Shown here: positions 8,057 through 23,170 of the stretch, piece by piece
How positions within the stretch are numbered: position 1 is the first letter of the stretch
Layout of the letters: each line of letters opens with the position of its first letter
Assembly: GCF_000240165.1 (NCBI RefSeq)
Contig: NC_017586.1
Span: forward strand, 6,027,228 to 6,091,227
From: Streptantibioticus cattleyicolor NRRL 8057 = DSM 46488
GTDB taxonomy: Bacteria > Actinomycetota > Actinomycetes > Streptomycetales > Streptomycetaceae
DNA: 64,000 nucleotides
Reading direction: 5' to 3'
Notes under the pieces: model-generated
Seen by the model: the letters and a program-made list of their open reading frames with translations, nothing else
Told to the model about the DNA's origin: nothing
Database searches by the model: none
Made by a program: the position numbers and the translations under genes

Positions 8057-9793
8057 TCAGGCGGCGAGCGGAGGCGCCGTGGCCAGCTCCACCAGCCGGC
8101 CGAGCACCTGGTGGCCGTCGCGTTCGGCCAGCGCGACCCGTTCCTCGGGCAGTGCCCGCTGCCACCATTCGCCGGCCGCCACGTCCATCGCCTCGCGCAG
8201 TTCGATCAGCGCGGTCATCAGCCGGTCGCGGGCGAGGCCGGCCTCGTCGTGGGCGGCCCGCAGCGCCGCGCCGGCGCTCCGCAGCCGCAGCGCCGCGCAC
8301 CGGGCCTCCAGCTCCAGCCCGGCGTCCTGCGCCCGGGCCACCCGTTCCAGCGCGCCGTGGAGCCGGTCGGCGGCCCGCCGGTTGGTCACCAGCACCGCGG
8401 CGAGCACCCCGACGACCGCGCCGACCACGGTGTCGGTCCACCGGTCGCGCACCAGCGTCCCGGCGCCCACCGAGGCGTTGCCGAACTGGCTGAGCAGCAG
8501 CGCCATCGGCGTCACGCACACGCTGCCCAGCCAGTAGTTGCGGCTGATCAGCGCCTCGGCGCCGAACTGGAAGGCCAGCGCGAGCAGCACCATCGCCAGG
8601 TGGCCGGTGCGGCTGAGCGGCAGCAGCGCGGTGAAGAGCAGCAGCCCCAGGAAGTTGCCGAGGGTGCGCTGCACCGCGCGCTGCCAGGAGAGCGTGATGT
8701 TGGCCTGGTGGATGGCGGCGGCGGTGACCACGGCCCAGTACGGGTGGCCGACGCCGAGCACCATGGAGAGCCAGCCGGCCGCGGTGCAGCCGACCGCCAC
8801 CCGGGCGCCGATGGGCAGCAGCGGTGAGCCGGGGCGCAGCCGGGCCAGGGCGGCGCGTACCCCGCGCGGTCCGGGGGCCGGGTGGTGCAGCGCCCGTTCC
8901 ACGGCGATGCCGGCGAGTTCGCCCTCGCCGCCCCGGCCCGGCGCGACGTCCGGCAGCGCACGCCCCTTGCGCAGGTCGCGCGCCCACCGCGTGAAGCGTT
9001 CCGCGTCCGCCACCGGCGCGACGGTCAGCGCCGTCTCGGCCCGCGCCAGCAGGCGTTCGAACGGGACGCGGGAGCGCCCCGCGGCGTGCGCCCGGGCGGG
9101 GACCAGGAAGAGCGTGTGCCAGGCGGCGTTGACCGCGGCGGCGGTGGCGTGCCGGGCCCGGGTGGTCTCCTCGGGGCCGGCGGTGAGCAGCCGGGCGGCG
9201 GCCTCCAGGGCGCGGGCGGTGGTGACCCGCTGCGGCCCGTCCGGGCGCACCAGCGCAGGCGCCATGCACACCGCCCAGGCCAGCGCGCCGCACGCCAGGG
9301 TGATCGCCAGGTGGCCGGGGACGTCGGCGAGCCGCTGCGGTACGAAGAAGGAGGTGGCGGCGACGAAGGTGACGATGATGTTGCCGGGCGGCCCGATCCG
9401 GGTGGCGTCGCAGACCATCTTGTGGACCGCGGCCAGCAGCGAGGCGGCGACCACCAGCACCGGCGCCGACCGGGTCAGCGAGGCGGCCGTCAGCGCCAGC
9501 CCCACGCTCGCCACCATGCCCAGCACCACCCACGCCAGCGCGCGCGCCCGGGCGGCGTACGGCAGCCCGTGCCCGTACAGCGCGGCGAGCGCGCCCGCCG
9601 AGGCGTACAGCGCCAGGTCGAGCCGGCCGACGGCGAGCAGGATCAGCTCCGGCGCGGCCGCGGCCACCAGCGCGCTGGAGGCGGGCTTGTGCCAGATGTC
9701 CAGCGCGCGTCCCAGGCGCACCGTGCTGCGCAGCGGAAGCGCCCGGACGAGCGGACCACGGGGCGTCGTCGGCGCGGGGGACTGCTTCACCAT
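8057..9793 (-). CDS. FUSC-type aromatic acid exporter-like membrane protein
   Basis: A 578-residue protein with two sets of hydrophobic helices separated by a soluble stretch. The second set contains LLPIGARVAVGCTAAGWLSMVLGVGHPYWAVVTAAAIHQANITLSWQRAVQRTLGNFLGLLL, the FUSC signature, followed by SVGAGTLVRDRWTDTVVGAVVGVLAAVLV. Related proteins (AaeB, YccS) export aromatic acids or stabilise the envelope. The C-terminal 100 residues form a long helical region. The ATG at 9793 lies just below an 18-bp inverted repeat. It is transcribed alone; nearby genes do not reveal the cargo. Confidence 0.8.
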   Translation of the reverse strand: MVKQSPAPTTPRGPLVRALPLRSTVRLGRALDIWHKPASSALVAAAAPELILLAVGRLDLALYASAGALAALYGHGLPYAARARALAWVVLGMVASVGLALTAASLTRSAPVLVVAASLLAAVHKMVCDATRIGPPGNIIVTFVAATSFFVPQRLADVPGHLAITLACGALAWAVCMAPALVRPDGPQRVTTARALEAAARLLTAGPEETTRARHATAAAVNAAWHTLFLVPARAHAAGRSRVPFERLLARAETALTVAPVADAERFTRWARDLRKGRALPDVAPGRGGEGELAGIAVERALHHPAPGPRGVRAALARLRPGSPLLPIGARVAVGCTAAGWLSMVLGVGHPYWAVVTAAAIHQANITLSWQRAVQRTLGNFLGLLLFTALLPLSRTGHLAMVLLALAFQFGAEALISRNYWLGSVCVTPMALLLSQFGNASVGAGTLVRDRWTDTVVGAVVGVLAAVLVTNRRAADRLHGALERVARAQDAGLELEARCAALRLRSAGAALRAAHDEAGLARDRLMTALIELREAMDVAAGEWWQRALPEERVALAERDGHQVLGRLVELATAPPLAA

Positions 9794-9851: not shown

Positions 9852-10859
9852 TCAGCGCATCGACGTCAGCTCCAGCGCCCGCGCCCGGCACTGAGCCACG
9901 CCGCCCCACGCCGACCGCAGCGCCCGCGCCTTCCCCAGCCACAACGACAGGTCGAACTCCGCGGTGTAACCGATCGCCCCGTGCAACTGGAGCGCCGCCC
10001 GCCCCGCCGCGTACGCCGCCTCACCCGCCTGCGCCTTGGCCACCGCCACCCGCGCCCCGGCGTCCGGTGCCGCCCCGGCGAGCGCCACCGCCGCGTCGTA
10101 CACCACCGGCCCGGCGAACTCCAGCGCCAGCAGCACGTCCGCCAGCCGGTGCTTGACCGCCTGGAACGAGCCCACCGGCCGCCCGAACTGGGTGCGCCGC
10201 CGCACCTGCGCGACGGTCCGGTCCAGCAGCGCCCGGCCGGCCCCCAGCGCCTGGGCCGCCACCGCCAGCCGTGCCCAGTCCAGCGCGTGGGCGGCGGCCC
10301 GGCGCACCGCCTCGCCCCGGGCGACCACCTCGCCGCCGGCCGCCGGGCGGGCGAGCCGCCGCGCCGGGTCCAGCGACGGCTGCACCGCGCCGTGGCCGGC
10401 GGCCACCCGCAGCCGGGTGCCGTCCTCGTCGACGGCGAAAACCACGTCGGCCGCGTCGGCGTCGAGCGCGTAGGGGCCGCCGCCGGGCGCCGCCAGCGTG
10501 GGCACCAGGCGCCCGTCGGCGATCCGCGGCAGCCACGCCCCGGCCGCCGCGCGCTCGCCGAGCCGCCCCAGCAGCGCCGCCACCGCGACCGCTTCGGCCA
10601 CCGGACCTGGCACCGCGTGCCGCCCCAGCTCCACGCAGGCGCAGACCACCTCCACCGGCAGCGGGCCGAGGCCCCCGTACCCCGTCGGCACCGCGAGCGC
10701 GAAGACCCCCGTGCCGGCCAGCCGGCCCCACAGCTCCCGGCCCGGCCCCGGCTCGCCCGCCGCCCAGGCCCGTACCACCGCGGGCGTCCCGGCGGCGGTC
10801 AGCAGGCGGTCGAGCGTGGCGGCGAACGCGGTCTGCTCGCCGTCCAGCGCGAAACGCAT
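9852..10859 (-). CDS. fadE32: Acyl-CoA dehydrogenase, FadE32-like small subunit
   Basis: A 335-residue protein of the short acyl-CoA dehydrogenase subunit type used in actinobacterial steroid degradation. The N-terminus MRFALDGEQTAFAATLDRLL, the VVRAWAAGEPGPGRELWGRLA segment and the C-terminal QLHGAIGYTAEFDLSLWL match what I recall of mycobacterial FadE32. Such proteins pair with FadE31 as alpha2-beta2 complexes, with FAD and active site shared between subunits. The start ATG overlaps the fadE31 stop (TGATG), so equal expression is likely. FadE33 is a close alternative name. Confidence 0.8.
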   Translation of the reverse strand: MRFALDGEQTAFAATLDRLLTAAGTPAVVRAWAAGEPGPGRELWGRLAGTGVFALAVPTGYGGLGPLPVEVVCACVELGRHAVPGPVAEAVAVAALLGRLGERAAAGAWLPRIADGRLVPTLAAPGGGPYALDADAADVVFAVDEDGTRLRVAAGHGAVQPSLDPARRLARPAAGGEVVARGEAVRRAAAHALDWARLAVAAQALGAGRALLDRTVAQVRRRTQFGRPVGSFQAVKHRLADVLLALEFAGPVVYDAAVALAGAAPDAGARVAVAKAQAGEAAYAAGRAALQLHGAIGYTAEFDLSLWLGKARALRSAWGGVAQCRARALELTSMR

Positions 10860-12022
10860 CAGCGGCGTCCCTTCGGCAGGCCGAGCAGGCGCTCGGCGAT
10901 GATGTCGCGCTGGATCTCGTTGGTGCCCGCGTAGATCGGCCCGGCGAGCGCGAAGACGTACCCCTCCGCCCAGCCGTCCGGGGCCTCGGCGGCCCGGTCG
11001 GCGAGTTCGCCCTGGGGGCCCAGCAGATCCAGCGCCGTCTCGTGCAGCGCGAGGTCGAGTTGGGACCAGAAGACCTTGTTGAGGCTGGCGGCGGCGACGG
11101 GGGGAGCGCCGGAGGCGGACCGGCAGGCGGCGGCGTAACCGAAGAGCCGGTAGGCGTGGGCCAGGGCCAGCACCCCGGCCACCCGGTCGCGCAGCGCGGT
11201 GTCGGCCGGGTCGGCCCGCTCCCGCCACGACGCGGCCAGCCGGCGGGCGGCGGCGGTGAAGCGCCCCGGGCTGCGCAACGTGAGCCCGCGTTCGTCACCG
11301 GCCGTGGACATCGCCACCCGCCAGCCGTCGTGCGCCCGGCCGATCACGTCCTCGTCGGGCACGAAGACCTCGTCCAGGAAGATCTCGGCGAACGCCGGAC
11401 GGCCGTCGAGCCGGGCGATCGGGCGGATGGTGACCCCGGGGGCGTCCAGCGCGAACATCACGTACGTCAGCCCCTGGTGCGGGCGTTCGGCCGGCGGGCG
11501 GCTGCGGAAGAGGCCGAAGGCGCGGTCGGCGAAGGCGGCCCGCGACGACCAGGTCTTGTGGCCGGTCAGCAGCCAGCCGCCGGTGGTGCGCCGCGCGGTG
11601 GAGCGCAGGCCGGCCAGGTCGGAACCGGCCTCGGGCTCCGACCACGCCTGCGCCCAGACCACCTCGCCGCGGGCCATCGGCGGCAGCACCCGGGCCCGCT
11701 GCTCGGCGGTGCCGTGCGCCAGGAGGGTCGGGGCCAGCAGGGCGATGCCGTTCTGCGCGACCCGGCCGGGGGCGCCGGCCGCCCAGTACTCCTCCTCGAA
11801 GAGCAGCCACCGCAGCAGCGACGCGCCCCGGCCGCCGTACCCGGCCGGCCAGGAGACCGCCGACCAGCGGTCCCGGCCCAGGACGCGCTCCCACTCCCGG
11901 TGGGCCGCGAACCCCTCCCGGGTCTCCAGCGAGGGCAGCGGCCGGGCGGGCACGTGCGCGGCGAGCCAGTCGCGGGCCTCGGCGCGGAACCCCTCGTCGC
12001 CTGCGGTGAGTTCCAGGTCCAT
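10859..12022 (-). CDS. fadE31: Acyl-CoA dehydrogenase, FadE31-like large subunit
   Basis: A 387-residue acyl-CoA dehydrogenase with AWSEPEAGSDLAGLRSTA (FAD/substrate loop), a WSSRAAFADRAFGLFRS segment and the C-terminal IYAGTNEIQRDIIAERLLGLP. The N-terminus and the FEEEYWAAGAPGRVAQNGIALLAPTLLAHGT stretch closely follow mycobacterial FadE31. In the KstR2 pathway FadE31 works with FadE32/33 on CoA thioesters formed after the steroid D ring is opened. The ATG overlaps the hydratase stop as TGATG. It is the middle gene of a three-gene operon led by an enoyl-CoA hydratase. Confidence 0.84.
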   Translation of the reverse strand: MDLELTAGDEGFRAEARDWLAAHVPARPLPSLETREGFAAHREWERVLGRDRWSAVSWPAGYGGRGASLLRWLLFEEEYWAAGAPGRVAQNGIALLAPTLLAHGTAEQRARVLPPMARGEVVWAQAWSEPEAGSDLAGLRSTARRTTGGWLLTGHKTWSSRAAFADRAFGLFRSRPPAERPHQGLTYVMFALDAPGVTIRPIARLDGRPAFAEIFLDEVFVPDEDVIGRAHDGWRVAMSTAGDERGLTLRSPGRFTAAARRLAASWRERADPADTALRDRVAGVLALAHAYRLFGYAAACRSASGAPPVAAASLNKVFWSQLDLALHETALDLLGPQGELADRAAEAPDGWAEGYVFALAGPIYAGTNEIQRDIIAERLLGLPKGRR

Positions 12023-12915
12023 CAGGCGCCCGCCTCCCCGGCGTCCTTCATCGCGGCGACGTCCATCCCGCCGAGCGGATCGCGCGCGGTCTCCGCGTTG
12101 TGCGCGTGCGCCAGGTGGTGCAGGGCGAAGGCGGCGTCCATGCCGGAGTGCAGGCCCTGGAGGTCCTCGGCCTGGTTGACCGCGCGCTTGGCCAACGCCA
12201 GCCCGAACCGCGGCATCCGCGCGACGGACGCTGCCAACTCCTCTGTTACAGCCGGTAGTTGATCGCGCGGCACGACCCGGTTGACCATCCCCACCTCGTA
12301 CGCCCGCCGGGCGGACATCCGCTCGCCGGTGAAGAGCAGCTCCTTGGCCACCCGGGGCGGCATCACCCACGGGTGGGCGAAGAACTCGACCCCGGGGATG
12401 CCCATGCGCACCACCGGGTCGGCGAAGAACGCGTCCTCACTCGCCACGATCAGGTCGCACGCCCAGGCGAGCATCAGCCCGCCGGCCACACAGGCGCCCT
12501 GCACCGAGGCGATCAGCGGCTTGGGCAGCTCCCGCCAGCGACGGCACATGCCCAGGTAGACCTCCGCCTCCCGGGCGAGCCGGCTCTCCGCGCCCGCCTT
12601 GCCGCAGTGGTCCCACCACAACGACGCCCGCCGTTCGAAGGGCAGATGGGCGTCGCGCCCCGGGGTGCCGATGTCGTGGCCGGCCGAGAAGTGCGGGCCC
12701 GCGCCGGCCAGCACCACGACCTTGACCTCGTCGTCCTCGGCCGCCCGGTAGAAGGCCCGGTCGAGCGCGTAGGTCATCGCCGAGTTCTGCGCGTTGCGGT
12801 ACTCGGGGCGGTTCATGGTGACCGTGGCGACCGGGCCCCGGCGGTCGTAGCGCACCGGTGCGGCCGGGTCCGAGGGGTCCACAGGGTCGTGCGGGCCGTG
12901 CTGGGCAGTGGGCAT
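12022..12915 (-). CDS. Enoyl-CoA hydratase/isomerase family protein
   Basis: A 297-residue crotonase-fold protein. The oxyanion-hole segments are LAGAGPHFSAGHDIGTP and VQGACVAGGLMLAWACDLIVASEDAFFADP. An insertion rich in Trp/Arg (SLWWDHCGKAGAESRLAREAEVYLGMCRRW) sits between them. ATG 12915 is chosen because GGAAGGAG lies 7 nt before it; the frame extends upstream through the operator and is not needed. It leads the fadE31-fadE32 operon and faces ipdF across a KstR2-like site. In mycobacteria this position holds fadD3, so this gene is an addition or replacement. Its exact substrate is unknown. Confidence 0.85.
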   Translation of the reverse strand: MPTAQHGPHDPVDPSDPAAPVRYDRRGPVATVTMNRPEYRNAQNSAMTYALDRAFYRAAEDDEVKVVVLAGAGPHFSAGHDIGTPGRDAHLPFERRASLWWDHCGKAGAESRLAREAEVYLGMCRRWRELPKPLIASVQGACVAGGLMLAWACDLIVASEDAFFADPVVRMGIPGVEFFAHPWVMPPRVAKELLFTGERMSARRAYEVGMVNRVVPRDQLPAVTEELAASVARMPRFGLALAKRAVNQAEDLQGLHSGMDAAFALHHLAHAHNAETARDPLGGMDVAAMKDAGEAGA

Positions 12916-12927
12916 CGCCGCTCCTTC

Positions 12928-12947
12928 CCTAACAAGTGTTTGGTAGG
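12928..12947. promoter_or_regulatory. KstR2-like operator between hydratase operon and ipdF
   Basis: The near-palindrome CCTAACAAGTGTTTGGTAGG lies in the 81-bp divergent gap. Its 14-bp core AACAAGTGTTTGGT (12931-12944) fits the mycobacterial KstR2 motif AnCAAGnnCTTGnT at all but one fixed position. A kstR2-like gene is 850 bp away. The site would let KstR2 repress both the hydratase-fadE31-fadE32 and ipdF-kstR2-fadA6 operons. Confidence 0.75.
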
Positions 12948-12996
12948 TTAACGTACCGTCGGAAGTGGCGTCGAGGGAGCCGAGGGGGCGCTGCGC

Positions 12997-13782
12997 GTGC
13001 ACTCACCGCCGCCGTACGTACCCGGCCACCGGTTGCTCGCCGGGCGCACCGCCGTGGTCACCGCCGCCGCCGGCACCGGTATCGGCGGGGCGACAGTCCG
13101 CCGGTTCCTGGAGGAGGGCGCCCGGGTCGTCCTCGGCGACGCGCACGCCGGCCGGCTGGCGGAGAGCGTGGCCGCGCTCGCCGGTGAGTTCGGCGAGGAG
13201 AACGTGGCCGGCGCCCCCTGCGACGTCACCGACGAGACGCAGGTGCGGGCGCTGCTCGACCTCGCCGAGGCCCGGCACGGCCGCCTCGACGTCCTCGTCA
13301 ACAACGCGGGCCTCGGCGGCACCGCGCGGCTCACCGAGATGACCGACGAGCAGTGGTCGCGCGTCCTGGAGACCACACTGACCGGCACTTTCCGCTGCGT
13401 ACGCGCCGCGCTGCGCCGGATGCGGGCGGCCGGCCACGGCGGCGTGATCGTCAACAACGCCTCGGTGCTCGGCTGGCGCGCCCAGGCCGGCCAGGCCCAC
13501 TACGCCGCCGCCAAGGCCGGGGTGATGGCGCTGACTCGCTGCGCCGCCGTGGAGGCCGCCGAGTACGGGGTACGGGTCAACGCGGTCGCCCCCAGCCTCG
13601 CCCTCCACCCCCACCTGGCCAAGGTCACCACCCCGGAACTGCTGGCCGAACTCACCGCCCGGGAAGCCTTCGGCCGCGCCGCCGAGCCCTGGGAGGTGGC
13701 CAACGTCATCGTCTTCCTGGCCGGCGACTACTCCTCGTACATGACGGGGGAGACGGTCTCGGTCAGCAGCCGGCGGGCGTGA
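12997..13782 (+). CDS. ipdF: Short-chain dehydrogenase IpdF-like
   Basis: A 261-residue SDR. The cofactor loop is TAAAGTGIGGATV, the NNAG motif is VLVNNAGLGG, and the catalytic Tyr-Lys is HYAAAKAG. The segments VIVNNASVLGWRAQ, ALTRCAAVEAAEYGVRVNAVAPS and EAFGRAAEPWEV closely follow mycobacterial IpdF (Rv3559c), the dehydrogenase/reductase acting on 5-hydroxy-HIP intermediates of steroid C/D-ring degradation. The GTG start has GAGGGGG upstream. It begins a three-gene operon with kstR2 15 nt downstream. Confidence 0.86.
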   Translation: MHSPPPYVPGHRLLAGRTAVVTAAAGTGIGGATVRRFLEEGARVVLGDAHAGRLAESVAALAGEFGEENVAGAPCDVTDETQVRALLDLAEARHGRLDVLVNNAGLGGTARLTEMTDEQWSRVLETTLTGTFRCVRAALRRMRAAGHGGVIVNNASVLGWRAQAGQAHYAAAKAGVMALTRCAAVEAAEYGVRVNAVAPSLALHPHLAKVTTPELLAELTAREAFGRAAEPWEVANVIVFLAGDYSSYMTGETVSVSSRRA

Positions 13783-13797
13783 GCCGACAATGGCGGT

Positions 13798-14484
13798 GTG
13801 CCCGAGAACAAGCAGCCGAAGAGCCCGCAGAAGAACCCCGCCGCGCGGACGAAGGACCCCGCCGCACCACCGCGGAACGCCGTCCGCCGGAAGGGCGCCG
13901 TGAACGCCGCGCCCCGGCGCCGTGGCGAACTGCTCGCCGTCGCCGCCGAGGTCTTCGCCGCCCAGGGGTACGACGCCACCACCGTGCGGGAGATCGCGGA
14001 CGCCGCGGGGCTCCTCGCGGGCAGCCTCTACTACCACTTCGACTCCAAGGAGTCGATGCTGGACGAGATCCTCAGCACCTTCCTCGGCGAACTGTGGGCC
14101 GGGTACGACGCGGTGCTCGCCGCCGGTCTCGGGCCCAGGGAGACCATCGAGGCGCTGGTGACCGAGTCGTTCCGGGAGATCGACCGGCACCGGGCGGCCG
14201 TCGCCATCTACCAGAAGGAATCGCGCCGCCTGACCGACCAGCCGCGCTTCGGCTACCTGGCCGACTCGCAGCGCAGGTTCGAGCAGGCGTGGCTGGGCAC
14301 CCTGGAGCGCGGGGTGACCGCCGGGGTCTTCCGCGCCGACCTCGACGTCCGGCTCACCTACCGCTTCGTGCGCGACACCGTCTGGGTCGCCGCGTCCTGG
14401 TACCGGCCGGGCGGACAGCACAGCCCGGAGGAGATCGCCCGGCAGTACCTGTCGATGGTGCTGGACGGCATTGCCACCGGGTGA
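13798..14484 (+). CDS. kstR2: TetR regulator KstR2-like
   Basis: A 228-residue TetR repressor. The DNA-binding half reads RRGELLAVAAEVFAAQGYDATTVREIADAAGLLAGSLYYHFDSKESMLDEIL, and the ligand half contains HRAAVAIYQKESRRLTDQPRFGYL and YRFVRDTVWVAASWYRPGG, close to mycobacterial KstR2 over its whole length. KstR2 represses the HIP degradation genes and is released by HIP-CoA. The GTG at 13798 follows ipdF by 15 nt but lacks a ribosome site and adds a Lys/Pro/Ala-rich tail. An in-frame GTG at 13900, with GGAAGGG just before it, would give a 194-residue protein of normal KstR2 length. Confidence 0.88.
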   Translation: MPENKQPKSPQKNPAARTKDPAAPPRNAVRRKGAVNAAPRRRGELLAVAAEVFAAQGYDATTVREIADAAGLLAGSLYYHFDSKESMLDEILSTFLGELWAGYDAVLAAGLGPRETIEALVTESFREIDRHRAAVAIYQKESRRLTDQPRFGYLADSQRRFEQAWLGTLERGVTAGVFRADLDVRLTYRFVRDTVWVAASWYRPGGQHSPEEIARQYLSMVLDGIATG

Positions 14485-14532
14485 CACCGACAACCGGCGG
14501 GTCGCGCCGGATCAGCCGAAGGAGAGGGAGTC

Positions 14533-15690
14533 ATGGCGGAGGCGTACATCGTCGGAGCGGTCCGCACCCCGGTCGGCCGGCGCGGCGGGGGGCTCGCCGC
14601 CGCCCACCCCGCCGACCTCGGCGCCCATGTGCTGCGGGCCCTGCTGGAACGTACCGGGGCCGACCCGGCCGCCGTCGAGGACGTGGTCTTCGGCTGCCTG
14701 GACACCGTGGGGCCGCAGGCCGGCGACATCGCCCGCACCAGCTGGCTGGCGGCCGGCCTGCCCGACCACGTCCCCGGGGTCACCGTGGACCGGCAGTGCG
14801 GCTCCTCCCAGCAGGCCGTCCACTTCGCCGCCCAGGCGGTGCTCTCCGGCACCCAGGACCTGGTGGTGGCCGGCGGCACGCAGAACATGTCGCAGGTGCC
14901 GATCGGCTACGCCAGCCGGCAGGCCGCGGTGCCGCTCGGGCTCGACCAGGGCCCGTTCGCCGGCTCGGCGGGCTGGCGGGCGCGCTACGGCGACCAGCCG
15001 GTCAGCCAGTTCCACGGCGCCGAGATGGTCGCCGAGCAGTGGGGGCTCGACCGCGAGCGGCTGGAGGAGTTCGCGCTCACCTCGCACCGGCGGGCGGTGC
15101 GGGCGATCGACGAGGGGCGGTTCGCCGCGGAGACGGTCCGGTACGGCGACGTGGTCCACGACGAGGGGCCGCGCCGGGACACCTCGGCGGCGAAGATGGC
15201 CGCGCTGCCCCCGCTGGCCGCGGGCGGACGGCTCACCGCCGCGCTCGCCTCCCAGGTCTCCGACGGCGCCGCCGCGCTGCTGCTGGCGAGCGAACGCGCG
15301 GTACGCGACCACGGGCTCACCCCGCGGGCCCGGATGCACCACCTGTCGGTGCGCGGCGAGGACCCGATCCGGATGCTCACCGCGCCCATCCCGGCCACCG
15401 CCCACGCGCTGAAGAGGGCCGGGCTCACCATCGACGACATCGACCTGGTGGAGATCAACGAGGCGTTCGCCCCGGTGGTGCTGGCCTGGCTGCGGGAGAC
15501 CGGGGCCGACCCGGAGCGGGTCAACGTCAACGGCGGCGCCATCGCGCTGGGCCACCCGCTCGGCGCCACCGGTGCCCGGCTGATGACCACCTTGCTGCAC
15601 GAACTGGAGCGCACCGGCGGCCGTTACGGCCTCCAGACCATGTGCGAGGGCGGCGGCCAGGCCAACGTCACCATCATCGAACGTCTGTGA
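14533..15690 (+). CDS. fadA6: Acetyl-CoA acetyltransferase FadA6-like thiolase
   Basis: A 385-residue degradative thiolase with nucleophile Cys in DRQCGSSQQA, NVNGGAIALGHPLGATGARL with the catalytic His, and the final TMCEGGGQANVTIIERL with the second Cys. FadA6 catalyses a late thiolytic step in steroid C/D-ring breakdown. GGAGAGGGAG precedes the ATG. It is the third gene of the ipdF-kstR2-fadA6 operon. Its last 17 nt overlap the 3' end of ipdC on the other strand. Confidence 0.87.
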   Translation: MAEAYIVGAVRTPVGRRGGGLAAAHPADLGAHVLRALLERTGADPAAVEDVVFGCLDTVGPQAGDIARTSWLAAGLPDHVPGVTVDRQCGSSQQAVHFAAQAVLSGTQDLVVAGGTQNMSQVPIGYASRQAAVPLGLDQGPFAGSAGWRARYGDQPVSQFHGAEMVAEQWGLDRERLEEFALTSHRRAVRAIDEGRFAAETVRYGDVVHDEGPRRDTSAAKMAALPPLAAGGRLTAALASQVSDGAAALLLASERAVRDHGLTPRARMHHLSVRGEDPIRMLTAPIPATAHALKRAGLTIDDIDLVEINEAFAPVVLAWLRETGADPERVNVNGGAIALGHPLGATGARLMTTLLHELERTGGRYGLQTMCEGGGQANVTIIERL

Positions 15691-16765
15691 GCCGCATCGC
15701 GGAGAGCGTCCGCAGCACCTGGTGGGCCTCGGTCATCACCCGCTCCACCAGCTCGGCGCAGGACGGCACGTCGGTGATGACCCCGGCCACCTGGCCGGCG
15801 GCCATCACCCCGGTGTCGGTGCGCCCGTCCACCATGGCCGCCTTGAGCAGCATCGGCGTGCCGGCCGCCAACATGACCTGACTGAGCGTCAGTTCACGGT
15901 GGCGCCGCATCGCCAGCCCGTCGCGCACCATCCGCGGCCAACTCGCCCCGAGGACCTGGCGCAACGCCACCGCGTGGCGCACCGCGCGCAGCAGCGCGCC
16001 CGCCCGCCCGGACCGCTCCAGCCCCGCCACCAGCTCGCTGCGGAGCATCCGGTGCGGCAGCCCGTCCACCTTGGTGGTGACGGTGACGTCGGTGACCGAG
16101 GCCGCCAGGTAGCGCGCCTTGACCGGCTCCGGCACCGTGGACTCGGCGGTGAGCAGGAAACGGGTGCCCATGGCGATCCCGGCGGCGCCGTACGCCAGCG
16201 CCGACACCAGCCCGCGCCCGTCGAAGAAGCCGCCGGCGGCCACCACCGGGATCCCCACCGCGTCCACCACCTGCGGCAGCAGCACGCTGGTGGCCACGCC
16301 GCCGGTGTGCCCGCCGCCCTCGCCGCCCTGCACCACCACCGCGTCCGCCCCCCACGCCGCCACCTTCTCGGCGTGCCGGCGCGCCCCCACCGACGGGATC
16401 ACCACCACCCCGGCGTCCTTCAGCCGGGCGATCAGCTCCCGGGACGGCGCCAGCGCGAACGAGGCCACCGGCACCCCCTCCTCGATCAGGATCCGCACCC
16501 GCTCGGCGGCGTCGGCGGCGTCCGCCCGCAGGTTGACCCCGAACGGCGCCCCGGTACGCGACCGCACCTCCCGCACCGCCTCCCGCAGCCGCCGCGGGGA
16601 CATGGTCGCCGACGCCAGGATGCCCAGCGCGCCCGCCTCGGCCGCCGCCGACACCAGCCGGGGCCCGGCCACCCAGCCCATCCCGGTCTGCACGATCGGA
16701 TGGCGCACCCCGGTCAGCCGGGTCAGCGCGGTGGGCAGCGACGGGGCCGGCGGCGCGGCGGTCAC
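15674..16765 (-). CDS. ipdC: Nitronate monooxygenase-like flavoprotein IpdC
   Basis: A 363-residue TIM-barrel FMN protein of the 2-nitropropane dioxygenase family: GVRHPIVQTGMGWVAG at the N-terminus, ADAVVVQGGEGGGHTGG (phosphate-binding) and GIPVVAAGGFFDGRGLVSALAYGAAGIAMGTRFLLTAEST. In the KstR2 pathway IpdC is an FMN-dependent reductase of the HIP route. The GTG at 16765 overlaps the ipdB stop as GTGA, which fixes the start. Last gene of echA20-ipdA-ipdB-ipdC, with its 3' end overlapping fadA6 tail to tail. Confidence 0.85.
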   Translation of the reverse strand: MTAAPPAPSLPTALTRLTGVRHPIVQTGMGWVAGPRLVSAAAEAGALGILASATMSPRRLREAVREVRSRTGAPFGVNLRADAADAAERVRILIEEGVPVASFALAPSRELIARLKDAGVVVIPSVGARRHAEKVAAWGADAVVVQGGEGGGHTGGVATSVLLPQVVDAVGIPVVAAGGFFDGRGLVSALAYGAAGIAMGTRFLLTAESTVPEPVKARYLAASVTDVTVTTKVDGLPHRMLRSELVAGLERSGRAGALLRAVRHAVALRQVLGASWPRMVRDGLAMRRHRELTLSQVMLAAGTPMLLKAAMVDGRTDTGVMAAGQVAGVITDVPSCAELVERVMTEAHQVLRTLSAMRLTDVR

Positions 16766-17526
16766 GACGCCACCTCGCGCTCCCGCAAGGCCCTCGGGTC
16801 GACGACCTCCCGGATCAGCCGCAGCTCCTCGGCGGTCGGCTCCCGGGTGGGCGGCACCTCGTCCGGCATCGCCAGCGGAAACCCGGTCGCCGCCACGATC
16901 CGTCCGACCGGCACCCCGGGGTGGCGGGAGACCAGCCGCATGGTGCCGTCCGGGCCGGCGAAGTCCAGCACCGCCAGATCGGTGACCACCCGCACGAGCC
17001 GGTGGAAGCGGGACGCCGACGGGCCGGCCGCCGCCGCCCGGTCGTTGCCCACCCCGCACACCATGTCCACCTCGGGCACGAAGACCCGCCGGGTGTGCCG
17101 GGGCACCCAGTAACTCACCGCGTTGTTGAGGGTGTTGACGGGGGCGCCGCGCACCCCGAGCAGTTGCCGGTCGGGGCGGTGCCAGTCGCCGACGCACGAG
17201 ATGTTCTGGTTGCCGTACCGGTCGAGCTGGGCGGCGCCCATCATCACGTGCCGCCGCCCGCCGGTGACCAGCGCCAGGTGGGCGCGGTACGGCAGCCACC
17301 CCTCGACCACGGCCGGGGCGCCGCCGAGCGGTGGCACGTCGCCCATGAGCAGCGCCTCGCCGTCGGTGAGCAGCAGCTCGGGGGAGAAGGTGAGCTTCGC
17401 CAGCCGGGCGGCGACGGTGGGGACGGTGCCCATCGGGCTCGCCAGGATCTCGCCCGCGCCGCGCCACGCCTCGGCGCAGGCGACCACGGCGTACTCGGCC
17501 CGGGTGGGGGCTGCGGTGCCGGTCAT
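16762..17526 (-). CDS. ipdB: CoA-transferase-like subunit IpdB
   Basis: A 254-residue beta subunit of the class I CoA-transferase fold. RRHVMMGAAQLDRYGNQNIS, GVRGAPVNTLNN and IREVVDPRALREREV closely follow mycobacterial IpdB (Rv3552). With IpdA it forms the hydrolase that opens the last carbocyclic ring, COCHEA-CoA, in steroid degradation; despite the fold it is not a true CoA transferase. The ATG overlaps the ipdA stop (ATGA) and its own stop overlaps the ipdC start, so the three genes are translationally coupled. Confidence 0.87.
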   Translation of the reverse strand: MTGTAAPTRAEYAVVACAEAWRGAGEILASPMGTVPTVAARLAKLTFSPELLLTDGEALLMGDVPPLGGAPAVVEGWLPYRAHLALVTGGRRHVMMGAAQLDRYGNQNISCVGDWHRPDRQLLGVRGAPVNTLNNAVSYWVPRHTRRVFVPEVDMVCGVGNDRAAAAGPSASRFHRLVRVVTDLAVLDFAGPDGTMRLVSRHPGVPVGRIVAATGFPLAMPDEVPPTREPTAEELRLIREVVDPRALREREVAS

Positions 17527-18383
17527 CGGCGCTCCTCGGTGAAGGCCGCCACCGCCGCCCGGTAGCCCGCCTCGTCACCGGTGAGGAAGCGGTCGGTGAA
17601 GGCACGCCAGGCGGCCGGGTCCGCCGCGGCCTCGGCGTAGGCGCGCTGGAAGGGCTCGTCCCGGCCGTAGTCGGGCACGCAGGAGGTGAAGTGGGCGCCG
17701 CCCGGGGCCGCCACCACACCGGCGACCGAGTGGCGTCGCACCAGCAGCGTCTGCGGCGGTCCGGCGGCGGCGAACCCGGCCGTCTGCACCAGGCGTTCGC
17801 AGGAGACGTAGGCCGCCGACGCCGCCTCGCAGAACAGGTCGTCGAAGTAGGGGTCGGGGCCCAGGTACTGCCCGTTGCCGTGCCGGTCGGCCCGGTTGAG
17901 GTGGACCAGCGCCGCGTCCAGGGTGAGCGCCGGCACCGCGACCAGCTCCTCGCCGTCCGGGTAGGGCGAACGCACCGTCCGCAGCGCGGGGTTGACCCGC
18001 ATCACGTCCGAACCGAGCCCGGCCCGCACCGGCAGGAACGGCAGCCGGTGGACGGCGGCGGTCAGCCCCCACATCATCATCGCCTCGTCCAGCTCGACCA
18101 GTTCGAGGTCACCGCGCTGCCGGGCGGCCCGGAAGTGCGGCTCCAGCGCGATGGAGTCCAGCGTGGCGAACGCGGTGACCAGCTTGCGGATCTTCCCGGC
18201 CGCCGCCAGCAGCCCGACGTCCGGACCGCCGTAGGAGACCACCGTCAACTCCCGTACCGGGGACCGCAGCACCGCCCGGACCAGGGCCATCGGCTTGCGG
18301 CGCGAACCCCAGCCGCCGATCCCCACGGTCATGCCGCTGCGCAGCCGCGAGGCCACCTCGTCCGCCGTCATCACCTTGGTCAC
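17523..18383 (-). CDS. ipdA: CoA-transferase-like subunit IpdA
   Basis: A 286-residue alpha subunit. MTADEVASRLRSGMTVGIGGWGSRRKPMALVRAVL and ELTVVSYGGPDVGLLAAAGKI are typical of IpdA, and LDEAMMMWGL matches the family core. It partners IpdB in hydrolytic ring opening of COCHEA-CoA. The GTG at 18383 overlaps the echA20 stop (GTGA); an ATG four codons further in (18371) is an alternative. It is co-transcribed with echA20, ipdB and ipdC. Confidence 0.87.
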   Translation of the reverse strand: MTKVMTADEVASRLRSGMTVGIGGWGSRRKPMALVRAVLRSPVRELTVVSYGGPDVGLLAAAGKIRKLVTAFATLDSIALEPHFRAARQRGDLELVELDEAMMMWGLTAAVHRLPFLPVRAGLGSDVMRVNPALRTVRSPYPDGEELVAVPALTLDAALVHLNRADRHGNGQYLGPDPYFDDLFCEAASAAYVSCERLVQTAGFAAAGPPQTLLVRRHSVAGVVAAPGGAHFTSCVPDYGRDEPFQRAYAEAAADPAAWRAFTDRFLTGDEAGYRAAVAAFTEERR

Positions 18384-19132
18384 CGGCGCTCCTTTTCGGC
18401 CGTGAAGGCGGCCCGGTGGCGGTCGGCGAGGCCGGCCAGCGCCGCCTCGAAGGTGAACCCCTGCTCGTAGCGGTAGGAGCGGCGCACGTCCACCGGGTCG
18501 ATGCCGTTGATCGCCGCCTTGGCCAGCCGCAGCAGCCCGCCGTCCTTGGCCGCGATCCGCCGGGCCAGCTCCAGCGCCGCGTCGGGCAGCCGGTCGCGCG
18601 GCACCACCTGCCACACCGAGCCGTGACGGTGCAGCTCGGCTGCGGTGACGGTGGCGGAGGTGTAGTACAGCGCGCGCATCAGGTGCTGCGGGACGAGCCG
18701 GGCCAGATGGGTGGCGGCGCCCAGCGCCCCGCGGTCCAGCTCGGGCAGGCCGAAGACGGCGTCCTCGCTGGCCACTACGGCGTCCGCGTTGCCGACCAGG
18801 CCGATCCCGCCGCCCAGGCAGTGGCCGTGCACCGCGGCGACCACCGGCACCTGGCACTCGTAGACCGCGGCGAACGCCTCCGCGCAGCCGTGGTTGGCCC
18901 CGATGAGCGCGGTGTGGCCGGGGCCGCGCTGGATCTCCTTCAGATCCACACCGGCGTTGAAGCCGCGTCCGGCGGCGGCCAGGACCACACAGCGCACCTC
19001 CGGGTCGCGGCCCGCGGCGCGCAACGCGTCGGCCAGCGCGTACCAGCCGCTCACCGGCAGCGCGTTGACGGGCGGATGGTCGACGGTGACGACGGCGACG
19101 CCCCGGTCGGGGGCGGTGGTGGAGACACCCAT
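18380..19132 (-). CDS. echA20: Enoyl-CoA hydratase-fold hydrolase EchA20-like
   Basis: A 250-residue crotonase-fold protein. VDHPPVNALPVSGWYALADAL, GRGFNAGVDLKEIQRGPGHTALIGANHGC, VHGHCLGGGIGLVGNADAVVASEDAVFGLPELDRGALGAATHLARLVPQHLMRALYYT and SYRYEQGFTFEAALAG closely follow mycobacterial EchA20 (Rv3550). EchA20 hydrolyses the D ring of 5-OH-HIC-type CoA esters just before IpdAB acts. First gene of the echA20-ipdABC operon; a KstR2-like site lies 19-38 bp above its start. Confidence 0.87.
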   Translation of the reverse strand: MGVSTTAPDRGVAVVTVDHPPVNALPVSGWYALADALRAAGRDPEVRCVVLAAAGRGFNAGVDLKEIQRGPGHTALIGANHGCAEAFAAVYECQVPVVAAVHGHCLGGGIGLVGNADAVVASEDAVFGLPELDRGALGAATHLARLVPQHLMRALYYTSATVTAAELHRHGSVWQVVPRDRLPDAALELARRIAAKDGGLLRLAKAAINGIDPVDVRRSYRYEQGFTFEAALAGLADRHRAAFTAEKERR

Positions 19133-19150
19133 GGGCAGATCCGCTACCTT

Positions 19151-19170
19151 TCCACCAAACGTTTGTTAGG
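19151..19170. promoter_or_regulatory. KstR2-like operator between echA20 and SDR operon
   Basis: TCCACCAAACGTTTGTTAGG in the 82-bp divergent gap has core ACCAAACGTTTGTT (19154-19167), which fits the KstR2 motif AnCAAGnnCTTGnT with two changes. It shares ACCAAACnnTTGTTAGG with the reverse complement of the site at 12928-12947. The paired location, one site per divergent promoter of the cluster, supports a common repressor. Confidence 0.75.
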
Positions 19171-19214
19171 TACGACGGTAGCAGCGGCCCGTCCGCTGCG
19201 GGAGGTGAGCGCGC

Positions 19215-20009
19215 ATGGGCTTGACCGTCGAACTGGCCGGCCGCGTCGTCGTCGTCACCGGAGGCACCCGCGGGGTCGGCGCCGGGATCGCCCAGGCCTT
19301 CCTCGCCGCCGGCGCCGAGGTGGTCACCCTGGCCCGCCATCCGCCCGGCCACCCGCTCACCGTGGCCGGCCGCACCGCCCGCCACCACCAGGCCGACCTG
19401 CGCGACACCGCCGCGGTACGCCGCCGGATCGAGGAGATCGCCACCGCCCACGGACGCCTCGACTGCCTGGTCAACAACGCCGGCGGCACGCCCTACCGAC
19501 TGCTCGCCGACGCCGGCCCGGAACGCCACGCCCGGGTGGTCGAACTCAACCTGCTCGCCCCGCTGACCGCCTCCCTCGCGGCCTACGAGGTGATGCGCCA
19601 CCAGGCGAGCGGCGGCTGCGTGCTCATGGTCGGCAGCGTCAGCGGCACCCGCCCCTCCCCGGGCACCGCCGCCTACGGCGCGGCCAAGGCGGGGCTGGAG
19701 AACCTGGCCCGCTCGATGGCGGTCGAATGGGCCCCGCTGATCCGGGTCAACACCGTGGTCCCCGGCATGGTCCGCACCGAGCGCGCGGAACGCCACTACG
19801 GGGACGCGGACGGGGTCGCCGCGGTCGCCCGCACCGTACCGCTCGGCCGGCTCGCCGAACCCGCCGACGTCGGCGACGCCTGCGTCTTCCTCGCCTCCGA
19901 CCACGCCGCCTACATCTCCGGCGCCGCCCTCCTCGTCCACGGCGGCGGCGAGCGCCCGGCCTTCCTCGCCGCCGCCACCGCAAACCAGCCCGCTCACAGG
20001 GAGAATTGA
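19215..20009 (+). CDS. Short-chain dehydrogenase (Rv3549c-like)
   Basis: A 264-residue SDR with cofactor loop TGGTRGVGAGI, CLVNNAGG and catalytic YGAAKAG. The cluster position matches Rv3549c in the mycobacterial KstR2 regulon, divergent from echA20 and followed by a second SDR. GGGAGGTGAG lies upstream of the ATG. Its pathway step is not fixed; it probably oxidises a hydroxyacyl-CoA or ring hydroxyl intermediate of HIP breakdown. One nucleotide separates its stop from the next start. Confidence 0.83.
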   Translation: MGLTVELAGRVVVVTGGTRGVGAGIAQAFLAAGAEVVTLARHPPGHPLTVAGRTARHHQADLRDTAAVRRRIEEIATAHGRLDCLVNNAGGTPYRLLADAGPERHARVVELNLLAPLTASLAAYEVMRHQASGGCVLMVGSVSGTRPSPGTAAYGAAKAGLENLARSMAVEWAPLIRVNTVVPGMVRTERAERHYGDADGVAAVARTVPLGRLAEPADVGDACVFLASDHAAYISGAALLVHGGGERPAFLAAATANQPAHREN

Positions 20010-20010
20010 C

Positions 20011-20940
20011 ATGCCATCAGACTTGTTGTGCGCCGGCCGGGTGGTGGCGGTCACCGGGGCCGGCCGGGGCCTCGGCCGCGCCCACGCCCTCGCCTTCGCC
20101 GCGGCCGGCGCCAAGGTGGTCGTCAACGACCTCGGCGTACGACGGGACGGACGCGGCCCGCACCACCCCGCCACCGGCGGCCCCGCGCACGACGTCGCCG
20201 AGGCCATCCGCGCGCGCGGCGGCGAGGCCGTCGCCCACACCGGGGACGTCGCCACCGACGAGGGCGCCGCCGCCGTGGTGCGCACCGCCCTCGACGCCTT
20301 CGGACGCCTCGACACCCTGGTCAACAACGCCGGCTTCCTGCGCGACCGGATGCTGGTCAACCTCGGTGAGGACGACTGGGACGCGGTGATCCGCGTCCAC
20401 CTCAAGGGGCACTTCCTCCCGCTGCGGCACGCCGCCGCGCACTGGCGCGCCGAGACCAAGGCGGGGCGCGTGCCGGACGCCCGGATCGTCAACACCACCT
20501 CGGGCGCCGGCCTGCTGGGCAGCGTCGGCCAGGGCAGCTACTCCGCCGCCAAGGCCGGTGTCGTCGCGCTCACCCTGGTCGCCGCGGCCGAACTGGCCGG
20601 GTACGGCGTCCAGGTCAACGCCGTCGCCCCGGCCGCCCGCACCCGGATGACCGAGGCCGCGTTCGCCGACGCCATGGCCGCCCCGCCGGCCGGCGCCTTC
20701 GACGCGATGGCCCCGGAGAACGTGGCACCCCTGGTGGTCTGGCTCGGCTCGGCCGGCAGCACCGGCGTCACCGGCCGGGTCTTCGAGGCCGAGGGGGGCC
20801 GCATCACCGTCATGCACGGCTGGCGCCGCGGCCCCGGCGAGGACACCGGCGCCCGGCGCACCCCGGCGCAGGCCGGCGCCACCGTCCGGCGGTTGCTCGC
20901 CGAAGCGGAGCCCGCGCTGCCGGTCTACGGCGCGCGGTGA
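20011..20940 (+). CDS. Short-chain dehydrogenase, MFE-2/Rv3548c-like
   Basis: A 309-residue SDR of the peroxisomal multifunctional enzyme type: TGAGRGLGRAHALAFAAAGAKVVVNDLG, a long insertion with GGPAHDVAEAIRARGGEAVAHTGDV, LVNNAGFLRDRML and YSAAKAG. This class oxidises 3-hydroxyacyl-CoA. It is the last gene of the SDR pair and is the equivalent of Rv3548c by order. AGGGAG precedes the ATG. A strong hairpin directly downstream ends the operon. Confidence 0.85.
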   Translation: MPSDLLCAGRVVAVTGAGRGLGRAHALAFAAAGAKVVVNDLGVRRDGRGPHHPATGGPAHDVAEAIRARGGEAVAHTGDVATDEGAAAVVRTALDAFGRLDTLVNNAGFLRDRMLVNLGEDDWDAVIRVHLKGHFLPLRHAAAHWRAETKAGRVPDARIVNTTSGAGLLGSVGQGSYSAAKAGVVALTLVAAAELAGYGVQVNAVAPAARTRMTEAAFADAMAAPPAGAFDAMAPENVAPLVVWLGSAGSTGVTGRVFEAEGGRITVMHGWRRGPGEDTGARRTPAQAGATVRRLLAEAEPALPVYGAR

Positions 20941-21018: not shown

Positions 21019-21240
21019 TCACGGACGCGGACCCACCACCGAGTCGCCGTCGCGCACCGTGATCGCGGACATCGGGCAGGAGTCCGCCGCGTCCAGCGCG
21101 GTCTCGTCCGGCTCGATCCGTCCCCGCAGCACCCGGGCGTGCGCGCCGTCCAGCTCGAACAGCTCCGGCGCGAGCCCGGCGCACATCCCCGAGGCGATGC
21201 ACCGGTGCTCGTCCACCTCGACCCGCCAGGCCACGTTCAC
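21019..21240 (-). CDS. 3Fe-4S-type ferredoxin partner of P450
   Basis: A 73-residue ferredoxin. The ligands are CIASGMC and the distal SCPMSA, the Cx5C...CP arrangement of single-cluster [3Fe-4S] ferredoxins that serve bacterial P450s. The GTG at 21240 overlaps the P450 stop as GTGA and gives the normal N-terminus (WRVEVDEHRC); upstream extension is not needed. It is made with the adjacent P450, to which it should pass electrons. Confidence 0.9.
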   Translation of the reverse strand: MNVAWRVEVDEHRCIASGMCAGLAPELFELDGAHARVLRGRIEPDETALDAADSCPMSAITVRDGDSVVGPRP

Positions 21241-22451: not shown

Positions 22452-22458
22452 GCTTACA
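22441..22458. promoter_or_regulatory. Palindromic operator over P450 start codon
   Basis: TGTAAGC-GCAT-GCTTACA has perfect 7-bp arms. The P450 start ATG (22451-22449, minus strand) lies in the 4-nt centre. It is the only clear palindrome between the P450 and the divergent TetR gene, so it is the likely TetR operator. Confidence 0.65.
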
Positions 22459-22567
22459 GACGCTATGCCCCTCGCTGGCGCGGGTCAACGGTGAGTACGC
22501 GAGCCGCTTGCGATCCGGGCCGCTATCCTGTCGCCTTCGCAGGCGGGCGCCGGGGGAGAGGGACGAC

Positions 22568-23170
22568 ATGGGCGAGGACGACCAGCGGCGCGGCGGGCGG
22601 CGCGGGGACGCCGACGCCACCCGGCAGGCCCTGCTGGACGCGGCCTCCGTGCTCTTCGCCGAACGCGGCTACGAACGCACCACGGTACGGGCGATCGCCG
22701 CCCGCGCCGGGGCCAACCAGGCGCTGCTCTTCCGCTACTTCGGCTCCAAACGCGCCCTGTTCGGCGAGGTGATGGCCCGCAACGGACGCCAGCGGCTGCT
22801 GGCCACCGAACCGGAACGCCTGCTGGAGGTGGCGCTGCGCGGGCTCCTCCCGGACGACGAGGACGGCCCCTGCGACCGTTCCCTGGAGGCGTTCTTGCGC
22901 TCGGCGGGCTCCACCGACGAGGTCGGCGCCGCCGGCCGCCTGCTCGGCGAGGAGTACGCCCGCGCCCTGGGCACCCTCAGCGACGCCGACGACGCCGCGC
23001 TCCGCGCCGACCTGGTCCTCGCCTGGCTGCTCGGCATCGGGCTGACCCGCGTGGTGGTGCGCAAGGAACCCCTGGCCGGCGCGGTCCCCGACGACATCTG
23101 CGCCCTGGTGCTGCCCGCCGCCCGCTCGCTGCTGGAAGGGCTCGCCCCGCCGGCCCGGCCGGAGCGCTGA
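22568..23170 (+). CDS. TetR family regulator
   Basis: A 200-residue TetR protein with the HTH segment ALLDAASVLFAERGYERTTVRAIAARAGANQALLFRYFGSKRALFGEVM. The ATG at 22568 has GGGGGAGAGGG at the right distance; an earlier in-frame start would add 20 residues. It is divergent from the P450-ferredoxin pair and probably represses it through the palindrome at 22441-22458. The ligand is unknown. Confidence 0.88.
   Translation: MGEDDQRRGGRRGDADATRQALLDAASVLFAERGYERTTVRAIAARAGANQALLFRYFGSKRALFGEVMARNGRQRLLATEPERLLEVALRGLLPDDEDGPCDRSLEAFLRSAGSTDEVGAAGRLLGEEYARALGTLSDADDAALRADLVLAWLLGIGLTRVVVRKEPLAGAVPDDICALVLPAARSLLEGLAPPARPER

Follow-up and report, generated by a model that had tools for sequence, protein, structure and literature searches.

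Why would a streptomycete keep genes for opening steroid rings C and D, and where would the substrate of their products come from? We addressed this question in a 64,000-nucleotide stretch of Streptantibioticus cattleyicolor NRRL 8057 (= DSM 46488; contig NC_017586.1, positions 6,027,228 to 6,091,227), referred to here as the window, in which positions 9852-20940 hold a KstR2-type cluster of C/D-ring degradation genes. The analysis suggested, with a probability that we put at roughly 70% on sequence evidence, that this cluster is the ring-cleaving half of a two-locus salvage pathway for acids of the indane-dione propanoate (HIP) type that are released by other steroid degraders. The enzymes and the regulator are of known kinds; what is new is the decoupling from the A/B-ring half, the frequency of this arrangement, and its two-locus layout.

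Twelve open reading frames were found at 9852-20940, all at the coordinates given by a first-pass annotation of the sequence. That annotation counted twelve KstR2-regulon genes and named eleven, and the twelfth was the crotonase gene at 12022-12915. The cluster is of the KstR2 type and consists of two short-chain dehydrogenase/reductase (SDR) genes, echA20, ipdABC, fadA6, kstR2, ipdF, an echA13-type crotonase gene, and fadE31- and fadE32-type genes. Strand and spacing suggested four transcription units. The first minus-strand unit comprised echA20, ipdA, ipdB, and ipdC, with a 4-base overlap at each of the three junctions, and the second comprised echA13, the fadE31-type gene, and the fadE32-type gene, with a 1-base overlap at both junctions, so the overlapping starts reported in the first pass were borne out. 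On the plus strand, ipdF, kstR2, and fadA6 formed one unit, and the pair of SDR genes formed the other.

For IpdA (17523-18383, minus strand) and IpdB (16762-17526, minus strand), the alpha and beta subunits of COCHEA-CoA hydrolase, the nearest structures in the Protein Data Bank (PDB) were those of IpdAB: 6co6 (chain A at 6e-99 and chain B at 9e-87, respectively), followed by 6con. Glutaconate CoA-transferase was far behind (5e-22 and 3e-11), which placed both proteins inside the IpdAB group, as the first-pass annotation had proposed. IpdA also has Glu at the position occupied by Ala in the 6coj variant, and we take this Glu to be the catalytic residue. The ring-D hydrolase EchA20 (18380-19132, minus strand) scored 411 bits against NF005925 (cut-off, 260) and shared 70% identity with its syntenic counterpart in Nocardia; these two results upheld its identity, and the structure search gave no EchA20 structure or close chain for comparison. 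The flavin-type 5-OH-HIC-CoA oxidoreductase IpdC (15674-16765, minus strand) matched the PF03060 NMO domain (nitronate-monooxygenase fold; 272 bits) and was 63% identical to its positional equivalent in Nocardia and 62% identical to a Tsukamurella gene. Its best NCBIfam model was FabK, under the cut-off, and the assignment was made via the domain and the position relative to Nocardia.

EchA20, IpdF, FadA6, both SDRs, and the crotonase were judged by NCBIfam cut-offs, and all of them passed. IpdF (12991-13782, plus strand), the 5-oxo-HIC-CoA oxidase of the SDR family, scored 439 bits against NF005880 (cut-off, 336), and the beta-keto-CoA thiolase FadA6 (14533-15690, plus strand) scored 689 bits against NF005865 (cut-off, 591); they were 67% and 66% identical to their syntenic Nocardia counterparts. 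The echA13-type crotonase (minus strand) scored 442 bits against NF006140 (PRK08290; cut-off, 280) and was 70% identical to the Nocardia gene sitting between fadD3 and the fadE31-type gene. The Rv3549c-type SDR (19215-20009, plus strand; Rv name by position) reached 384 bits against NF005893 (cut-off, 255) with 59% identity to the syntenic Nocardia gene, and the Rv3548c-type SDR (20011-20940, plus strand) reached 451 bits against NF005861 (cut-off, 373). The latter may be the hydroxyacyl-CoA dehydrogenase that works on the HIP side chain, by analogy with a table entry for RHA1_RS22710 (PMC8399759), a locus that we matched to Rv3548c from a count of locus tags.

The fadE31-type acyl-CoA dehydrogenase (10859-12022, minus strand; IpdE1-like) contained three acyl-CoA dehydrogenase domains, was 65% identical to the syntenic Nocardia gene, and grouped in a tree with the Nocardia fadE31-type row, apart from FadE30. 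The fadE32-type dehydrogenase (9852-10859, minus strand; IpdE2-like small subunit) was named by its position and by 53% identity to its positional counterpart in Nocardia; its top NCBIfam model was NF050027 (IpdE2), at 127 bits under a cut-off of 450. For the TetR repressor KstR2 (13798-14484, plus strand), the best solved match was 2ibd, an unnamed regulator (3e-65), and the KstR2 structures 4w1u and 4w97 came second (6e-59). The protein was 58% identical to that of the syntenic Nocardia gene, and its C-terminal stretch read RDTVWVAASWYRPGG, versus RDTTWVSVRWYRPGG in 4w1u. Homology began near residue 35, and the true kstR2 start may be internal to the called frame.

The published KstR2 motif is AnCAAGnnCTTGnT (Kendall 2010, PMC3068626). 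Across the 64 kb, a relaxed form, ANCAARNNYTTGNT, was found twice (at 12931 and 19154), versus 0.02 expected. One putative operator, AACAAGTGTTTGGT (12931-12944), lies in the divergent promoter between echA13 and ipdF, one letter off the strict motif. The other, ACCAAACGTTTGTT (19154-19167), lies in the divergent promoter between echA20 and the SDR genes, two letters off, and its position matches the Rv3549c/Rv3550 site tested by electrophoretic mobility shift assay (Kendall 2010, PMC3068626). The same pattern was then counted in 80 related loci, namely those most like the window in IpdA out of at least 581 (11 of the 80 were shorter than 20 kb). Their 1.6 Mb held 141 sites: 74 lay upstream of echA20, 64 fell in the interval that separates ipdF or fadE30 from echA13 or the fadE31-type gene, and 3 were elsewhere; 60 loci had two sites, 18 had one, one had three, and one had none. 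The two operators of the window compare with three in the mycobacterial and Rhodococcus jostii genomes (Kendall 2010, PMC3068626). The M. tuberculosis fadE30/fadD3 site was published as AACCTACCAAGCACTTGCTTTGTT (Kendall 2010, PMC3068626), and two streptomycete loci, L005 and the megaplasmid of Streptomyces sp. NBC_00841 (L006), showed TAACCTACCAAACACTTGTTAGGGAA at the corresponding position.

Gene order was compared with that of Nocardia, which stood in for M. tuberculosis H37Rv. In Nocardia farcinica, fadA6, kstR2, ipdF, and fadE30 are followed by fadD3, echA13, fadE31-type, fadE32-type, and fadE33 genes, with KshA, HsaA, HsaD, and HsaC a little further along. The window showed this order minus fadE30, fadD3, and fadE33. 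Thus, the mycobacterial order described in the first pass was shared with Nocardia, but these three genes were missing from it. No FadD3-type ligase or additional fadE gene was found anywhere in the 64-kb window at 1e-20. HIP activation in R. jostii is ascribed to FadD3, and the HIP side-chain dehydrogenase pair to RHA1_RS22390 and RS22415 (PMC8399759), loci that were listed as fadE33 and fadE30 by Crowe 2017 (PMC5380842). Because fadE30, fadD3, and fadE33 activate HIP and begin on its side chain according to the literature, the window is without the start of the side-chain branch, and the ring branch is whole.

Compared with the KstR2 regulon of Mycobacterium, Rhodococcus, and Nocardia (Kendall 2010; Crowe 2017), the window cluster has the same genes, strands, repressor, and operator type, but it lacks the three genes just named, and its genome lacks A/B-ring markers. 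The HIP cluster of Steroidobacter denitrificans is similar to the window in that it is without fadD3 and has a homologue elsewhere in the genome (PMC5380842). However, that cluster was reported to be upregulated on testosterone and so serves a whole-steroid degrader, unlike the window cluster (PMC5380842).

Relatives of two of the missing genes were located 3.5 Mb from the window and 25 kb apart: a FadD3-family ligase gene (genome C2:2480169-2481758) and a FadE30-type dehydrogenase gene (genome C2:2505507-2506658). The ligase passed the FadD3 family test, with 781 bits against NF005801 (cut-off, 657); the steroid-cluster FadD3s of Nocardia and NBC_00841 scored 835 and 703 bits. Between and around the pair were genes for an Ltp-type thiolase, a ChsH2 OB-fold protein, a FadE33-like dehydrogenase (40% identity), and a second thiolase, and further genes included crotonases, an SDR, F420-type oxidoreductases, and more. 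The block was syntenic in four genomes (G375, G051, G003, and G153) that were chosen for having both genes on one contig. The region at C2:2469927-2515137 is a conserved lipid-type catabolic locus. In a plasmid collection, the top matches of FadD3 formed a group at 45 to 54% identity, followed by a drop to 39% or less. The best matches of both FadD3 and FadE30 included steroid-cluster genes of Nocardia and NBC_00841, and the FadD3 group also held a gene beside a steroid Delta-isomerase gene in Novosphingobium.

The second locus carried an operator-like element of its own. Palindromes of the CTGACGnnnCGTCAG type occurred 8 times in the 78.5 kb around the S. cattleyicolor locus and 7, 7, 9, and 8 times in the loci of G375, G051, G003, and G153, respectively, against an expectation of 0 to 0.1 in first-order random sequence (20 draws each). 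Of these 39 palindromes, 37 were between labelled second-locus genes, and none was found in the window. A TetR gene in the second locus was 78 to 92% identical across the four genomes; its product matched neither a solved structure at 1e-8 nor an NCBIfam model at 1e-12. As a guess, this TetR protein is a candidate repressor for the palindromes.

The two loci were linked by co-occurrence. For FadD3, with one query and threshold used on both sets, 79 of 80 ipdA-positive genomes (the miss was G296) had a match versus 1 of 80 ipdA-negative genomes (G024), and FadE30 was found in 77 of 80 (the misses were G145, G285, and G296) versus, again, G024 alone. Within one genus (g9), the FadD3 counts were 65 of 66 and 0 of 26. 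The ipdA-positive set was random plus the S. cattleyicolor genome, the ipdA-negative set was not random, and the counts refer to the families and not always to the second locus; in G011, an HsaA-positive genome, the FadD3 match adjoins its FadE30. The idea that the second locus is core genome was rejected on the basis of the single FadD3 match and the single FadE30 match among the 80 ipdA-negative genomes. The one ipdA-negative exception carried FadE30-like and FadD3-like genes side by side (L145, G024:C1:92000-111999); this locus had no second-locus palindrome, and its FadD3 grouped with that of Mycobacterium branderi.

The first-pass annotation had noted that no upper steroid pathway was present in the window, and a whole-genome check agreed with it. 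In the S. cattleyicolor genome (8.1 Mb; completeness, 100), there was no match to KshA_C (PF19298), none to the HsaA model NF045629 at 1e-60 (4 of 16 first-look candidates scored), none to the HsaC model NF045631 at 1e-15 (14 of 14 candidates scored), and none to the KstD-type protein of NBC_00841 at 1e-20 (36 of 36 scored). Thus, the KshA, KstD, HsaA, and HsaC expected of a complete 9,10-seco steroid degrader were not found in this genome at these thresholds. The same queries did find matches elsewhere. The KshA query matched the records for Nocardia, for NBC_00841, and, at a weak 3e-19, for BHT-5-2 p1; the HsaA query was above the cut-off in 9 genomes; the HsaC query matched in 5 of 15 genomes, none above the model cut-off; and the KstD query matched in 6 of 15, three strongly and three at 43 to 46% over pieces. 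The earlier guess that the module processes C/D-ring acids from other sources was strengthened by these results.

The pattern in the family was judged by one marker per half, IpdA and HsaA, in 394 evenly drawn Streptomycetaceae genomes. IpdA was found in 205 of them at 1e-60 (weakest match, 6.5e-95), and HsaA was above its curated cut-off in 9. All 9 were among the 205, so 196 of the 205 ipdA-positive genomes were without HsaA at that cut-off. A published survey listed 55 of 57 Streptomyces genomes without the steroid pathway (Bergstrand 2016, PMC4810484), and we found no report of a C/D-only module in Streptomyces in the open literature, which omits most subscription papers. The S. cattleyicolor genome was the only member of its genus returned by a genus search, and the genus is little sampled.

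A full steroid cluster is found on the NBC_00841 megaplasmid. Its C/D genes were 74 to 85% identical to those of the window (65% for the fadE32-type gene), and it had the same two operators. Unlike the window, it also held KshA, two HsaA, HsaD, HsaF-/HsaG-type genes, fadE30, and a FadD3-family ligase gene in the same 41 kb, together with HsaC-type and KstD-type genes that were both below model cut-offs. Both HsaA proteins were above the cut-off, and the 1.5-Mb linear plasmid was typed as mobilizable.

Among the 80 related loci, echA20, ipdA, ipdB, and ipdC were together in all 80, which showed that the clustering was not due to chance in loci fetched by ipdA. The Rv3548c-type SDR gene was present in 78, fadA6 in 67, ipdF in 66, the fadE31-type gene in 62, kstR2 in 58, the fadE32-type gene in 53, echA13 in 44, fadE30 in 34, fadE33 in 17, and KshA in 16. 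The KshA count is not comparable with the 9 HsaA-positive genomes of 394, as the loci were picked by IpdA likeness and the genomes were drawn evenly. A gene labelled HsaE by position was found in 18 loci and had no NCBIfam match at 1e-100. The counts were unchanged at 40% identity, save for one more P450 and one HsaD. When three queries were used with identity left unrestricted, a FadD3-type ligase gene lay in the stretch around the cluster in only one locus, L104 of Streptomyces sp. NBC_01306 (L104:5425-7092), where a product 52% identical to that of the S. cattleyicolor second locus was encoded beside a C/D cluster; fadE30 and A/B genes were both absent from the stretch examined. Ligases at only 29 to 35% were found in eight loci. 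The cluster form without fadE30 was also carried by S. cinnamoneus JCM 4633 and S. griseocarneus JCM 4580. Ten loci (L044-L049, L051, L053, L056, and L117) showed only the two SDR genes, echA20, and ipdABC, with no kstR2, fadA6, ipdF, or fadE genes within the stretch examined, and these formed one clade with S. violaceusniger.

In a FastTree tree of EchA20, IpdA, IpdB, and IpdC, rooted on Nocardia and Tsukamurella, the window was on a deep branch among family members. The first-pass annotation had argued for inheritance or transfer as a unit; the window's place among its family relatives gave no indication of a recent transfer as a unit from mycobacteria. The C/D-only forms without fadE30 were on several deep branches, and the three labels changed 19 times, a count in which gain cannot be separated from loss. 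Contigs of Microtetraspora glauca (L065) and Streptosporangium nondiastaticum (L107) nested inside Streptomyces, which points to mislabelled genomes or transfer. Against three hand-chosen relatives, dN/dS (the ratio of nonsynonymous to synonymous substitution rates) was 0.17 to 0.47 in 36 of 36 comparisons, and all twelve window genes are under purifying selection.

In the published pathway, FadD3 makes HIP-CoA, which relieves repression by KstR2, and side-chain shortening yields 5-OH-HIC-CoA; IpdF and IpdC convert this to HIEC-CoA, EchA20 opens ring D to give COCHEA-CoA, IpdAB opens ring C, and a thiolase gives MOODA-CoA, which is taken on by FadE32 and others (PMC5380842, PMC8399759, PMC6678751). 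From this, we infer the following reactions, substrates, and outside source for the two loci. Since A/B-ring markers were not found in the genome, the acid, if steroidal, must be supplied from outside. A HIP-type acid, either the indane-dione propanoate left after rings A and B are removed or a hydroxylated bile-acid form, would be taken up, and the second-locus FadD3-family ligase would make its CoA ester. The FadE30-type dehydrogenase, perhaps with the FadE33-like protein as a partner, would start on the side chain, and HIP-CoA would release KstR2 from the two operators and turn on the four window transcription units. The SDRs and FadA6 would then finish the side chain, IpdF and IpdC would produce HIEC-CoA, EchA20 would open ring D, IpdAB would open ring C, and FadA6 and the FadE31/32 pair would hand the chain on to central metabolism. 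HIP forms have been reported to accumulate in the broth of a mutant culture (PMC6678751), and the title of a 1977 paper refers to metabolites formed from HIP by Streptomyces rubescens.

Several results weighed against this reading. The KstR2 regulon of a typical HIP cluster includes fadD3 and fadE30, and here their relatives are 3.5 Mb away, with no KstR2-like site in 78.5 kb of the second locus. This result and the separate operator there mean that joint control with the window was not supported. Moreover, the Ltp-type thiolase, the ChsH2 OB-fold protein, and the F420-type oxidoreductases are uncalled-for in HIP breakdown. Some FadD3-type matches from the plasmid collection (M. branderi and Rhodococcus RDE2) had no steroid cluster in the stretch seen, and the family name is therefore no proof of a HIP substrate. 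In trees, the second-locus FadD3 and FadE30 each made up a separate streptomycete clade, which leaves room for a different substrate; the connection to the steroid-cluster rows was weak for FadE30 and open for FadD3, as were 8 of the 14 inner forks in the FadD3 tree. The co-occurrence with ipdA was counted without a genome tree and may reflect few evolutionary events.

The loss of the A/B half was also open to objection. Only a quarter of the HsaA candidates were scored, and the four absent markers are those of the 9,10-seco route, with other routes not searched. Some HsaA-family match at 1e-60 was present in 150 of the 394 genomes, the 9 included. In G271, G177, and G329, such matches scored 369 to 379 bits, which is below the cut-off; we read the sub-cut-off matches as probably other flavin monooxygenases. 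KstD-like matches at 43 to 46% were found in two HsaA-negative genomes, G375 and G109. Thus, the A/B loss rests on cut-offs.

A possible but unlikely alternative is that the cluster in the window is specialized for the remains of bile acids, namely 3'-hydroxy- and 7-hydroxy-HIP from cholate and chenodeoxycholate, with EchA13 removing the 7-hydroxyl group. This is a narrower form of the salvage pathway, and the odds of the two overlap. A hydroxy-HIP would skip the FadE30/FadE33 step, so a cluster for it could dispense with those genes, and the window does lack fadE30 and fadE33 while keeping echA13 and the Rv3548c-type SDR gene. Published work agrees in that 3'-OH-HIP could bypass the acyl-CoA dehydrogenase and hydratase step and that echA13 tracks bile-acid degraders (PMC6678751, PMC8399759, PMC5380842). 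However, FadE30-type and FadE33-like genes exist in the second locus, FadE30 co-occurs with ipdA, and loci without fadE30 also occur without echA13.

It is rather improbable that the system degrades another bicyclic natural product, such as an indane-skeleton terpenoid or polyketide, and that steroid HIP is incidental. The presence of IpdA in half of the sampled family, mostly without HsaA, would fit such a role, as would the aldolase-type (Ltp/ChsH2) genes and separate operator of the second locus. Nevertheless, the enzyme order, KstR2, and the operator are those of the steroid regulon, and the full NBC_00841 steroid cluster has the same C/D genes at the identities given above. A related and equally doubtful view is that of a two-locus, two-operator streptomycete pathway for indane-type acids that are not primarily steroid-borne, from which steroid degraders took the C/D module; the second locus would trim the side chain of a bicyclic compound by Ltp/ChsH2-type cleavage, and the window cluster would open the rings. 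Finally, a decaying remnant of an earlier full steroid pathway would be in keeping with the full clusters of some streptomycetes and the loss of fadE30, fadD3, and fadE33 from the window, but is very unlikely given twelve open frames under purifying selection, a fadE30-less C/D-only form on several deep branches, and FadD3 and FadE30 relatives retained together with ipdA.

The neighbors of the cluster were examined as well. Genes for a ferredoxin, a cytochrome P450, and a TetR protein at 21019-23170 were rejected as part of the cluster, with a P450 match in 0 of 80 loci at 45% and in 1 of 80 at 40%. A FUSC-type membrane protein gene (8057-9793) was directly downstream of the fadE32-type gene and adjoined the cluster in 3 of the 80 loci. 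The stretches at 26348-31806 and 61484-63985 encoded an alpha-galactosidase with a ricin-type lectin domain, a beta-lactamase-fold protein, a GH18 enzyme with a carbohydrate-binding domain, and a GH59 galactocerebrosidase-type enzyme with lectin domains.

Taken as a whole, the observation made in the first pass was confirmed and its interpretation was supported. The present analysis added that the module is common in the family, that relatives of fadD3 and fadE30 are in a second locus, and that the window nests among family relatives. The finding also draws attention to a locus of the FadD3/FadE30 type that carries a palindromic operator. Should roughly half of the family have only the C/D half, surveys that require the whole pathway would miss these bacteria, and streptomycetes of the soil may finish degrading the sterols and bile acids on which other organisms have started.

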